Shown one piece after another: positions 13,947-20,931 of a stretch of 64,000 nt of DNA. The stretch's first letter is position 1; every line of letters begins with the position of its first letter. The stretch is taken from NCBI RefSeq assembly GCF_013085255.1, contig NZ_JABFCX010000002.1, positions 1,602,501 to 1,666,500 of the forward strand. The letters are read 5' to 3'. The notes beneath the pieces are model-generated. The model worked only from the letters and a program-made list of their open reading frames with translations, was not told where the DNA came from and did not search any database. The DNA comes from Parvularcula mediterranea (lineage in GTDB: Bacteria; Pseudomonadota; Alphaproteobacteria; Caulobacterales; Parvularculaceae). Both the position numbers and the translations under genes were made by a program.

Positions 13947-14726
13947 ATGGGCACCAAACCTTGGATTGCAGCACTCGCTGCTGGCCTGTCGTTAAGTCTA
14001 GGCGGCGCTGCACTTGCGGACCGCGGCGGACCCGACATCGATGTTGGGGTTCGTCTTGATGGCGCGAATTTCTCTGCGCTGATCGGGACCGACGGGTTCC
14101 GTTATTGGAACGATTTCTACCCGCGGCACCACGGCTATTTTGGCCGGGGCTACAGGACCGACACCTTCATCACGCGTGGCGGCTACATCGAGCGGGTCTA
14201 TTACCGCCGTGGCCGGATCGTGGATAGCGTGATCATCGGGCGCGTCGACCGGTGGGGTAACCACCGCTACTGGAACGTCCGTGACCGGTATGGTCGGTAC
14301 CATGATTATCGCGGCTGGAACCGTCGCCACGCGCGCTGGGACGACCGCTGGGATCGCCGGGACAGGCGCTATGACTGGCGCGATGACCGCCGTGACCGCA
14401 GACGCGACTGGCGCGATCACCGGTATGACGATCGCCGGGATCGTCGTGACCGCCGTGATGATCGGTATGATGACCGCCGTGACCGCAGGGACGACCGCTA
14501 TGACGATCGTCGGGACAGGCGTGACGACCGTCGCGACAACCGCAGGGACCGCCGCGATAGCCGTTACGATAGTCCCTATCGCGGTGACCAGGGCAGCACA
14601 GGTGTTCGTGCACGGACGGATGTCCTTAAGAACCCTGAGAAGTACCTGAAGGACGATGACGGCTTGATAATCCGCAGCGAAAGCGGCGTCGTCGGTCGCC
14701 TCGTGAAGGAGAAAAAGGACGACTGA
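13947..14726 (+). CDS. Secreted protein with Arg/Asp mixed-charge repeats
   Basis: 259 residues, with AGGAGG eight bases before the ATG. Signal peptide about residues 1-24 (A-L-A cleavage), then a structured Tyr/Gly/Arg region to about 125. Residues about 128-210 are a low-complexity array of D-R-R-D and D-D-R-Y-D-D-R-R units, and a conserved-looking 45-residue tail ends in a basic-acidic K-E-K-K-D-D. The array is highly charged but near neutral and likely disordered. The N-terminal part resembles RcnB/nickel-efflux-type periplasmic proteins in its Tyr/Arg/Trp spacing, but I cannot assign it. Followed by a terminator shared with convergent uvrD. Confidence 0.7.
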   Translation: MGTKPWIAALAAGLSLSLGGAALADRGGPDIDVGVRLDGANFSALIGTDGFRYWNDFYPRHHGYFGRGYRTDTFITRGGYIERVYYRRGRIVDSVIIGRVDRWGNHRYWNVRDRYGRYHDYRGWNRRHARWDDRWDRRDRRYDWRDDRRDRRRDWRDHRYDDRRDRRDRRDDRYDDRRDRRDDRYDDRRDRRDDRRDNRRDRRDSRYDSPYRGDQGSTGVRARTDVLKNPEKYLKDDDGLIIRSESGVVGRLVKEKKDD

Positions 14727-14753: not shown

Positions 14754-14781
14754 GCCGGAGCCGCAGGGCTCCGGCGTTTTT
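14754..14781 (+). terminator. Rho-independent terminator between Arg/Asp-repeat gene and uvrD
   Basis: GCCGGAGCC (14754-14762) pairs with GGCTCCGGC (14767-14775) around a gcag loop, followed by GTTTTT. The convergent uvrD stop codon lies at its far edge. Confidence 0.85.
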
Positions 14782-17093
14782 CATTCCGCGAGCTCGAGGA
14801 AGCTCGCGATGACTTTCTTGTCGCCGACATCGTCGAACTCGACCTCGAGCTTGTTGCCCTCGGCGCGCAGGACCGTGCCTTCGCCGAACTTCGCATGACG
14901 CACGCGTTCGCCGGCCGAGAAGGTCTCTTCTCCGGGTGCGGAGGATGCAACAAGGCGTGCGTGGCCGTCGATGGCAGGCTCACTGACCCGCCGCTGGCCA
15001 TACTCGCGGGCACGCTTCCAACCCGGGGTCTGGTAGCGGTTGGCGCTATCCTCGAGCACGAGGTCCGCAAAGCGCGACTGGGCCGGGGTGTCCTTGGCTG
15101 AGACGCCGTAGAGGCCGGGTTCAGAGATCACGTCGACCTCCTCCTCGGGCAGCTCATCGACAAAGCGTGAGGGCAGGGCGTTCTGCCATCGTCCGTACAC
15201 TTGCCTGTTGGCCGCGAAGCTGATGCGGCAGCTCTCCCGCGCGCGGGTGATGCCGACATAGGCGAGGCGACGCTCTTCCTCGAGGCCGACCTTCCCGTTC
15301 TCGTCGAGACTGCGCTTCGAGGGGAAGATCTCTTCCTCCCAGCCGGGTAGGAAGACGACCGGGTATTCGAGGCCCTTCGCCGCGTGGAGGGTCATCAGCC
15401 AGACCTGTCCGTCTTCGGACTCTTCAGAGCGCTCGGCCACGAGGCTGACATGATCGAGATAGCCTGCGAGGGTTTCAAACTCTGATGCTGCGTTGACGAG
15501 CTCTTTCAGGTTCTCAAGCTTCGAGGGGGCCTGGACGTTCTTGGAGTTCTTCCAATAGTCTGTGTAGCCCGCTTCCTCCAGAACCATCTCGGCGAGGGGC
15601 GCGGGCGCCATCGCTTCGGCCTCGTTCTGCCAGCGCTGGAGGGAGGCAAGGAAGGTGCCCATCGCCGCCTTGGCCTTGCCCTTCAGCTCATTCGTTTCGA
15701 GCATGAGCTGGCCTGCCGCCACGAGAGACATGCGGTTCTGGCGCGCGATGACGTTCAGCTGCTGCAGCGTCTTGTCGCCAAAGCCACGGCGCGGCTTGTT
15801 GATGATCCGCGAGAAGCTGAGATCGTCCTCGGCGTTCCTGACGAGCCGCAGGTAGGCCAGGGCGTCGCGGGTTTCCTCACGCTCGTAGAAGCGGGGACCA
15901 CCGACGACCCGATAAGCGATGCCTTGCGTGTTGAAGCGCTCTTCGAAGCTGCGCATCTGGAAGGACGCACGGACGAGGACGGCCATGTCCGAAAGGGAGC
16001 GGCCCTTCATTTGCTCGCTCTCGATATCCTCCGCAATCTGACGGGCTTCCTCCTCGCCGTCCCAGACGCCGCGCAGTTTGATCAGCTCACCGCCTTCCTG
16101 CTCGGTCCAGAGGTCCTTGCCGAGGCGGTCAGTGTTGTTGGATATGATCGCGCCTGCCGCGTTCAGGATCGCCTGGGTCGAGCGGTAGTTCTGCTCAAGC
16201 CTGATGACCTTTGCGCCGGGGAAATCCTTCTCGAAGCGGAGGATGTTCTCGACCTCGGCGCCGCGCCAGCCATAGATCGACTGGTCGTCATCACCCACCA
16301 CGCAGATGTTCGCCGGGTCGCCTTCCTTGCCTTGGGCGAGGAGGCGCAGCCAGAGATATTGCGCAACGTTCGTGTCCTGATACTCGTCCACCAGCATGTA
16401 GCGGAAGCGGCGGTGATACTCCGCCCTGATCTCTGGTTCGCGCTGGAAGATCGTGAGGTTGTGGACCAAGAGATCGCCGAAGTCCGCAGCGTTGAGATCG
16501 ATCAGGCGCTGCTGGTAGTCCCTGTACAGAGAAACAGCCTTGCCATCGCCGAAGACGTCCCCATCATGGGCCTTGAGGTCTGCGGGGGTCAGGCCCTTGT
16601 TCTTCCATCCGTCGATGACCGCGGCCATGCCGCGGCCTGACCAGCGTTTCTCATCGAGGCCAGACGATTCGATCACCTGCTTGCAGAGCCGGACCTGGTC
16701 GTCGGTATCGATGATCGTGAAGCTAGGCTTGAGGCCAACGATCTCCGCGTGGCGGCGCAGGATCTGCGCGGCGACCGAGTGGAAGGTGCCCATCCAGCGC
16801 AGGCCTTCGACCACCTCGCCGACGAGGGCACCGACGCGCTCCTTCATCTCGCGGGCAGCCTTGTTGGTGAAGGTCACGGCCAGCACTTCCCAGGGCTGGG
16901 CTTTGCCAGCGGCGAGGAGGTGGGCGATCCGCGTCGTCAGCGCCTTAGTCTTGCCGGTCCCCGCGCCAGCGAGCATCAGCACCGGCCCCTCGGTAGTGAG
17001 GACCGCTTCGGCCTGCTTGTCGTTGAGGCCGTCGAGATAGGAGCTGTTCTGGGGCGCAGCCGTGGCGCGCGCGCGCTGGGAGAGAGAAGCCAT
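14781..17093 (-). CDS. uvrD: UvrD/PcrA-type superfamily 1 DNA helicase
   Basis: 770 residues. The UvrD/PcrA 3'-5' helicase unwinds DNA in nucleotide excision and mismatch repair and clears RecA. All SF1A motifs are present in order: G-A-G-T-G-K-T (Walker A), T-F-T-N-K-A-A-R-E-M, D-E-Y-Q-D-T-N, G-D-D-D-Q-S-I-Y-G-W-R-G, L-E-Q-N-Y-R-S-T, T-L-H-A-A-K-G-L-E and Y-V-G-I-T-R-A-R. A C-terminal Tudor-like domain (V-R-H-A-K-F-G-E-G-T-V) binds RNA polymerase in homologues. The start at 17093 is chosen because the LexA box at 17115-17129 would otherwise lie inside the coding region; the ATG at 17102 is also possible. Confidence 0.95.
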   Translation of the reverse strand: MASLSQRARATAAPQNSSYLDGLNDKQAEAVLTTEGPVLMLAGAGTGKTKALTTRIAHLLAAGKAQPWEVLAVTFTNKAAREMKERVGALVGEVVEGLRWMGTFHSVAAQILRRHAEIVGLKPSFTIIDTDDQVRLCKQVIESSGLDEKRWSGRGMAAVIDGWKNKGLTPADLKAHDGDVFGDGKAVSLYRDYQQRLIDLNAADFGDLLVHNLTIFQREPEIRAEYHRRFRYMLVDEYQDTNVAQYLWLRLLAQGKEGDPANICVVGDDDQSIYGWRGAEVENILRFEKDFPGAKVIRLEQNYRSTQAILNAAGAIISNNTDRLGKDLWTEQEGGELIKLRGVWDGEEEARQIAEDIESEQMKGRSLSDMAVLVRASFQMRSFEERFNTQGIAYRVVGGPRFYEREETRDALAYLRLVRNAEDDLSFSRIINKPRRGFGDKTLQQLNVIARQNRMSLVAAGQLMLETNELKGKAKAAMGTFLASLQRWQNEAEAMAPAPLAEMVLEEAGYTDYWKNSKNVQAPSKLENLKELVNAASEFETLAGYLDHVSLVAERSEESEDGQVWLMTLHAAKGLEYPVVFLPGWEEEIFPSKRSLDENGKVGLEEERRLAYVGITRARESCRISFAANRQVYGRWQNALPSRFVDELPEEEVDVISEPGLYGVSAKDTPAQSRFADLVLEDSANRYQTPGWKRAREYGQRRVSEPAIDGHARLVASSAPGEETFSAGERVRHAKFGEGTVLRAEGNKLEVEFDDVGDKKVIASFLELAE

Positions 17094-17114
17094 CCACCGC
17101 ATATAGAAGAGTCG

Positions 17115-17129
17115 GAACGCTTCGGGAAC
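17115..17129 (-). promoter_or_regulatory. LexA-type SOS box upstream of uvrD
   Basis: On the minus strand this reads GTTC-N7-GTTC (GTTCCCGAAGCGTTC), the direct-repeat operator of alphaproteobacterial LexA. It lies 22 bases before the uvrD ATG at 17093, with TATAT between box and start. uvrD is a known SOS gene in many bacteria. Confidence 0.75.
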
Positions 17130-17291
17130 GGCGGAAGCCGCCGCAGGGCATCTCTTCTTCTCCATCTAGGCATGTGGAAAACGGCCTCGGTGACGTGAAC
17201 ACGGCAAGATCACTGGGCTTGGGGGATCAGCTGCGCCTGAAATACACAGCGATTGTGCGAAATTTGATGAAAGGTCTTGATTTGTTCTCCC

Positions 17292-17314
17292 TAAAATGGG
17301 AACAGGAAAAGAAC
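17292..17314 (+). promoter_or_regulatory. Promoter with LexA-type SOS box ahead of microprotein and dnaE
   Basis: A -10-like TAAAAT (17292-17297) is followed by GAACAGGAAAAGAAC (17300-17314), an exact GAAC-N7-GAAC direct repeat, the alphaproteobacterial LexA operator. It would cover the transcription start, 16 bases before the small ORF's ATG. Confidence 0.75.
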
Positions 17315-17330
17315 AAAGAGGGAGCGAACT

Positions 17331-17408
17331 ATGTCCTTGCTGAAAGATCTCGCCGGATTCACCATCGTTATCAGTGTCATCGCCACGGCGATCACCGTCA
17401 TCGGCTAA
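17331..17408 (+). CDS. 25-residue single-TM microprotein, SidA-like SOS peptide
   Basis: ATG at 17331 with a strong GAGGGAG ribosome binding site six bases upstream, stop at 17406-17408. Residues 1-8 are short and mildly charged (Lys5, Asp6); residues 9-25 are an unbroken run of Ile, Val, Ala and Thr, enough to span the inner membrane. A LexA box precedes it. This matches the description of SidA, the 29-aa SOS-induced inner-membrane division inhibitor of Caulobacter, which acts on FtsW/FtsN. Homology cannot be shown at this length, so the role is inferred. dnaE starts 64 bases later and may be co-transcribed. Confidence 0.6.
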   Translation: MSLLKDLAGFTIVISVIATAITVIG

Positions 17409-17472
17409 GGCCGCGCTCCCTGTGGAGAATGAGGGTGCGCAGGGGGCTCCTGAATCGCCTACCGTATGGGCG

Positions 17473-20931
<3,459 letters not shown>

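Follow-up and report, generated by a model that had tools for sequence, protein, structure and literature searches.

The 25-residue reading frame lying immediately before dnaE in Parvularcula mediterranea can be regarded with good confidence, on the basis of its sequence and by analogy, as a LexA-controlled single-pass inner-membrane microprotein, a shortened form within the broadly defined SidA family, which would act as an SOS inhibitor of cell division, probably via FtsW. The analysis was carried out on a window of 64,000 nucleotides, i.e., the whole stretch of DNA under study, which is contained in contig 1 of a genome of 3.2 Mb assembled in 3 contigs.

The locus upstream of dnaE

The reading frame, together with its box and ribosome site, is located between a divergent uvrD/pcrA-type helicase gene and dnaE. 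The features of the region are listed below by window position and strand.

14781-17165, minus strand: gene for a uvrD/pcrA-type helicase, transcribed divergently (coordinates of the longest frame; the true start is possibly further in)
17115-17129, plus strand: second exact GAAC-N7-GAAC box, near possible uvrD starts
17197-17211, plus strand: third box-like site, GAACACGGCAAGATC, a box-pattern match with one mismatch
17300-17314, plus strand: putative LexA operator, GAACAGGAAAAGAAC (GAAC-N7-GAAC), exact box, 16 nt gap to the ATG
17318-17324, plus strand: ribosome binding site GAGGGAG, 6 nt gap to the ATG
17331-17408, plus strand: sidA-like ORF of 25 aa, MSLLKDLAGFTIVISVIATAITVIG, with ATG at 17331 and TAA at 17406-17408
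17473-20931, plus strand: dnaE, replicative DNA polymerase III alpha subunit (Pfam PHP and DNA_pol3_alpha), ATG at 17473

The first-pass annotation had described an exact LexA box, a ribosome site, an ATG and a 25-residue hydrophobic ORF upstream of dnaE, and each of these elements was read in the window where it had been placed. The purine-rich ribosome site is also present in the three closest congeners of the window genome. The peptide consists of a short charged N-terminus (K5, D6) followed by a single hydrophobic segment of about residues 7-25, with 19 hydrophobic or small residues running from residue 7 up to the C-terminus; on the basis of the positive-inside rule, this layout suggests an N-in, C-out orientation with almost nothing outside. 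An ORF of this size is usually too short for the length limits of gene finders and is hence easily missed.

The GAAC-N7-GAAC spacing, which we take to be the form that the LexA box has in Alphaproteobacteria, suits the host, whose own lexA is preceded by two exact boxes within about 45 nt. The 300 nt upstream of recA contain one-mismatch LexA-type sites only and no exact one. For the pattern GAACN7GAAC, the window contains two occurrences where 1.69 would be expected, and the genome contains 89, compared with 78 of the reversed pattern; since its frequency is at or near chance, the box alone was not considered as evidence. The box at 17115-17129 has an exact counterpart at a similar distance from dnaE in the congeners G052 and G054, which also carry exact boxes at about the dnaE distance of the site at 17197-17211, and neither counterpart was seen in the congener G056. 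The two sites and their congener counterparts suggest that uvrD would be SOS-controlled here.

No sigma-70 promoter consensus was found at the ORF, nor any terminator-like site between the ORF and dnaE. A search for RNA families on both strands around the ORF gave none above the gathering score, an unknown antisense RNA lying outside the reach of that test, and a sub-threshold snoRNA match (E 0.064) was regarded as chance. A hairpin that would sequester the ribosome binding site (GGGAGCG with CGCTCCC after the stop) was noticed by eye in the window only; it is absent from three congeners and was rejected. Just 5' of dnaE, at 17452-17462, a GAATC followed by G(C/A)CTA is conserved in all four congeners. 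GANTC is the CcrM methylation site, and with this conserved GAATC dnaE may possess its own cell-cycle promoter. Further upstream, the window contains a 259-aa ORF at 13947-14726 with a long arginine/aspartate-rich repeat (RRDRRDDRYDDRRD...).

Conservation and selection in Parvularculaceae

The window peptide used as a query returned matches in five of the 62 genomes of the family, all within its own genus. A short hydrophobic ORF upstream of dnaE was present in every one of the 34 Parvularculaceae genomes read, and the 33 distinct peptides recovered from them were aligned as A1, where D6 and G9 are invariant in all 33 rows and a [KRQN]D-x2-G motif near the N-terminus is conserved. The A1 profile was then searched against 299 genomes of the order, a set that takes in 60 genomes of the family, without G003 and G029, and matches were obtained in 57 genomes. 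Parvularculaceae accounted for 53 of these (53 of 60 genomes, E at most 2.7e-6; 34 A1 sources and 19 held out), and the four matches outside the family had E values of 0.02 or worse and fell within long frames. Among the seven Parvularculaceae genomes lacking an A1 match, six also lacked a DnaE match and in the seventh, G030, the contig ends at dnaE.

In 52 of the 53 cases the DnaE match followed on the same strand, 16-284 nt (median 69) after the end of the A1 match. In G021 the box and the ORF occur together on contig C33, not at a contig edge and away from dnaE, which is located on C4 with neither box nor ORF in the 650 nt upstream. Of 50 Parvularculaceae loci, 45 have an exact box at most 120 nt 5' of the counterpart ORF, the others having one (three loci) or two mismatches (two loci); this count covers 50 of the 53 loci, G041, G002 and G005 having been left out. 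In a control of 3000 random 120-base pieces drawn from the window, 16 contained an exact box.

Comparison of the four congeners in six pairs gave dN values of 0.18-0.47 and dS values of 0.70-1.51, one pair being saturated. The pS/pN ratio was 1.8-4.1 in the frame of the ORF, near 1 in the +1 frame, where pS was slightly higher in five of six pairs; in the +2 frame all six pairs fell below 1. Purifying selection at the amino-acid level acts on the codons of the ORF.

When the window was cut into its 1577 stop-to-stop segments, a profile built without the window peptide and those of its three closest congeners placed the window ORF at the top with an E value of 1.6e-4, the next segment having 2.8. 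The ATG, the ribosome site, the hydrophobic frame and the LexA box, whose conservation in relatives the first-pass annotation had proposed to verify, were all found to be conserved. As judged from the sequence comparisons, the ORF is a genuine microprotein gene, conserved and preceded by an SOS operator sequence: it encodes a hydrophobic microprotein of the 25-35 aa class with one helix, predicted to insert into the membrane and under coding selection, it is located immediately before dnaE and it has a putative LexA operator directly in front.

Relation to SidA and breadth of the family

The NCBIfam SidA model NF033228 (div_inhib_SidA; 29 positions, curated cut-off 35 bits) scored above its cut-off in 33 of the 299 genomes of the order, and a Phenylobacterium peptide taken from the same position as the window ORF reached 65.6 bits. 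In 14 control genomes the model matched seven at E 1, including Caulobacter vibrioides, with one above the cut-off. In all 30 loci among the matches listed (33 genomes) the SidA start was located 130-191 nt before the FVHL/FIHL motif of the DnaE N-terminus, with an exact box at most 150 nt upstream in 21 loci and a single-mismatch box in the other 9. As sidA lies directly before dnaE in Caulobacteraceae, the window ORF is therefore the positional counterpart of sidA.

The likeness to SidA of Caulobacter put forward in the first-pass annotation is supported, and it turned out to extend to the genomic position; the peptide falls outside NF033228 and its homology is reached solely via intermediates. 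The window ORF and sidA of Caulobacter crescentus lie directly before dnaE with a LexA box in front, and both peptides have a charged N-terminus with [KR][DE] followed by one hydrophobic helix. With 25 aa against 29 aa, the window peptide falls 4 residues short of SidA, and most of its Parvularculaceae relatives exceed it by up to 6 residues. Unlike SidA, neither the window peptide nor the 33 A1 rows matched NF033228, which also gave no match with 23 Maricaulaceae rows or anywhere in the window genome at E 1. The FVWM-type core of SidA (with F17, W19 and M20 in every one of the 14 SidA rows of alignment A2) is absent from the window peptide, and its clade lacks both this core and the tryptophan of the wider family.

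A direct hhalign comparison of A1 with SidA gave a probability of 0.3% and was not significant; column-permuted controls scored as high in 14 of 150 cases against A4, an alignment of 15 Caulobacteraceae SidA rows including Brevundimonas, and in 58 of 150 against A2. Intermediates were available from Maricaulaceae, where all 37 dnaE upstream regions carry an ORF (26 recognised by a hydrophobicity filter and 11 by a match to the A6 profile described below), several of these loci being without an exact box. Alignment A3, consisting of 23 Maricaulaceae rows, matched A1 with a probability of 92.5 (P 4.9e-7, 29 columns) and A4 with a probability of 94.6 (P 6.9e-8, 22 columns), and none of 150 column-permuted controls scored as high in either comparison, also when the membrane columns alone were permuted.

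Alignment A5, made from 14 of the 20 available non-Caulobacterales peptides, gave probabilities of 97, 94 and 94 against A3, A1 and A4, and a rerun with all 20 peptides gave 97, 92 and 94, with 0 of 100 controls as high in each case. Alignment A6, whose 33 rows comprise no member of Parvularculaceae or Caulobacteraceae, scored 94.7 against A1 and 94.9 against SidA. Searched over the 299 genomes, A6 matched just 8 of 60 Parvularculaceae genomes, and its matches fell on the dnaE-upstream ORF in 7 of 8 genomes in this family and in 46 of 52 in Caulobacteraceae. Three weak A6 matches in family f4 (G072, G076 and G080; E 0.03-0.04) are also situated just 5' of dnaE.

No A6 match was obtained in the window genome; the window peptide is short and has no tryptophan. 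When the segments of the window were ranked, A3 placed the ORF first at E 0.23 and A6 third at E 2, and with A4 the ORF was not among the four best segments. Since the window peptide was missed or weakly ranked by A3, A4 and A6, its link to SidA runs through the family, via A1; the peptides were picked by position and hydrophobicity, and the profiles therefore share that selection. Profile comparison indicates a probable relation of the window peptide to SidA through intermediates. Position, operator, architecture and this bridged homology together point to a relative of SidA that has diverged and become shorter, and that lies outside the narrow NF033228 model.

The search was extended to the class. 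Among 80 named dnaE loci, 40 showed a box within 600 nt, accompanied by a hydrophobic ORF in 33 and, by the filter used, without an ORF in seven, including Parvibaculum, Tepidicaulis and Rhizobiales. Beyond Parvularculaceae, Maricaulaceae and Caulobacteraceae, records with both elements came from Pseudolabrys, Phreatobacter, Stappia, Rhizobiaceae and the PS1 clade. No box was found within 600 nt of dnaE at the loci of Rhizobium smilacinae, Mesorhizobium, Magnetospirillum and Pelagibius, nor at ten loci belonging by name to Rhodobacterales. From the rest of the class, leaving Caulobacterales aside, 89 regions upstream of dnaE were sampled: 15 contained the box, 13 of them together with an ORF, and 74 did not. 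The 1780 shuffled sequences contained the box in 20 cases and box plus ORF in none.

An A5 search of 387 genomes of the class matched 31. Among the matches listed, 30 loci were considered, 26 of which had an exact box at most 89 nt upstream and 24 had dnaE downstream; in two further boxed loci the dnaE side is interrupted by the end of a contig or by masked sequence, and the four loci without box and dnaE were counted as noise. After removal of the 8 genomes that had supplied the query, the box was present in 18 of 22 loci and dnaE in 16 of 22, again among the matches listed; the peptide of G402 is identical to the query peptide from G488. A [DE]-x16-W register occurs in 17 of 33 A1 rows, 19 of 23 A3 rows and 9 of 14 A5 rows against 0 of 15 A4 (SidA) rows, and A5 also contains other spacings (x17 in 5 of 14). 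At two loci outside the order, L372 and L373, a longer reading of 47 aa (MSKLIKKVEEEGGVSRWFQD...) was recorded, for which the choice of start is possibly wrong.

The genome collection places Parvularculaceae, Caulobacteraceae (f3) and Maricaulaceae (f5) in one order; NCBI gives Parvularculaceae an order of its own. Within the order of the collection, 11 loci of family f2 showed no forward LexA-type box before dnaE, and one of them (L059) has a LexA-type box in the opposite direction. The boxless f2 loci may reflect loss, move or replacement of the inhibitor.

As read from these upstream regions, units of putative LexA box and ORF are present before dnaE in several other alphaproteobacterial lineages, and a family wider than the named one is the main surprise of this work. 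A search of mainly open-access literature gave no description of SidA relatives outside Caulobacteraceae or of the link to dnaE. We consider it likely that SidA is one branch of an old alphaproteobacterial family of LexA-controlled one-helix microproteins, often with [DE]-x16-W, encoded before dnaE in Parvularculaceae, Maricaulaceae, Caulobacteraceae and lineages beyond, which would provide much of the class with its SOS checkpoint on division.

Candidate function, alternatives and meaning

SidA, for which Modell 2011 is said to be the source paper, provides the model for the function proposed here. LexA binding, induction, membrane insertion, FtsW as target and division arrest are all features that we infer for the window peptide by analogy, and they would follow one another in a simple scheme. 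In undamaged cells LexA would sit on 17300-17314 and repress the ORF; upon DNA damage RecA would become active and LexA would be cleaved, leading to immediate synthesis of the peptide from its short leader. The peptide would then span the membrane with its helix, leaving the charged N-terminus (K5/D6) on the cytoplasmic side, and would bind the septal cell-wall synthase complex, with FtsW as the first candidate by analogy with SidA, so that the bound complex would stay inactive until the damage is repaired.

According to the available parts of the sources cited, SidA is a trans-acting inhibitor in Caulobacter that interacts with FtsW and blocks division, resistance to the inhibitor is conferred by ftsW(F145L), ftsW(A246T) and ftsI(I45V), and the model proposed is that the inhibitor keeps the FtsW/FtsI/FtsN complex inactive (PMC4211646). 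In the same sense, sidA has been handled as an early SOS gene, and the filaments caused by lexA deletion fail to form once sidA is also deleted (PMC12700426); a lexA sidA double mutant was also used elsewhere (PMC13384398), and a review names FtsW as the SidA target (PMC9578287). SidA has been modelled, below high confidence, on transmembrane helix 7 of FtsW, as have YneA, SosA and ChiZ (PMC13396833, available part).

These proteins offer further terms of comparison. By description, DidA of Caulobacter is likewise a small single-helix inhibitor of late division acting after DNA damage; it differs in being 71 aa long and SOS-independent (DriD) and in interacting with FtsN (PMC4211646, available part). 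YneA of Bacillus, SosA of Staphylococcus and ChiZ of Mycobacterium are, again by description, damage-induced small membrane proteins blocking a late division step, but they are longer and belong to other bacterial groups, and SidA was modelled on the face of FtsW helix 7 opposite to theirs (PMC13396833, available part).

A different function, which we hold to be unlikely, is that of an SOS-induced membrane peptide of the TisB/DinQ type, which would slow growth via membrane disturbance and not by binding the divisome. E. coli does have very hydrophobic single-helix SOS peptides, TisB being one of them. DinQ is a further case (PMC3567139, available part). In favour of this reading, the window clade also lacks the aromatic residues typical of SidA and of much of the wider family. 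However, the [KRQN]D-x2-G motif, with D6 and G9 invariant, would be superfluous for bulk hydrophobicity, no RNA family scored above the gathering score on either strand (with the reservation made above for an unknown antisense RNA), and the peptide is related to SidA through intermediates; it is because of this homology that the membrane-disturbing peptide is the lesser bet.

The ORF might also be a leader peptide or upstream ORF tuning dnaE, so that the LexA box would serve dnaE and the peptide sequence would be incidental. The position before dnaE in 52 of 53 Parvularculaceae matches fits such a role, and with no terminator-like site in between a common transcript would be possible. Against it stand the selection at the amino-acid level, the variable gap to dnaE (16-284 nt), the separation in G021 of the box and ORF on C33 from a dnaE on C4 that has neither, and the trans-acting inhibition known for the Caulobacter counterpart (PMC4211646, available part), and we judge a leader function to be highly improbable. 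A chance ORF behind a chance box can be practically dismissed; the box alone does occur at or near chance in the window and the genome, but conservation across the family, selection and the 0 of 1780 shuffles with box and ORF together speak against it.

The preferred reading, an SOS-induced division inhibitor from the broadly defined SidA family, bears on a general matter, since we know of no account of how most Alphaproteobacteria halt division upon DNA damage. If the family acts like SidA, the missing inhibitor would have been overlooked in many genomes although it lies right in front of dnaE, and each such lineage would gain a concrete candidate gene. The family would also offer natural variants for mapping the inhibition of FtsW by a single helix, among them one of 25 aa that lacks the aromatic core, and there would be reason to ask why the gene stays beside dnaE.
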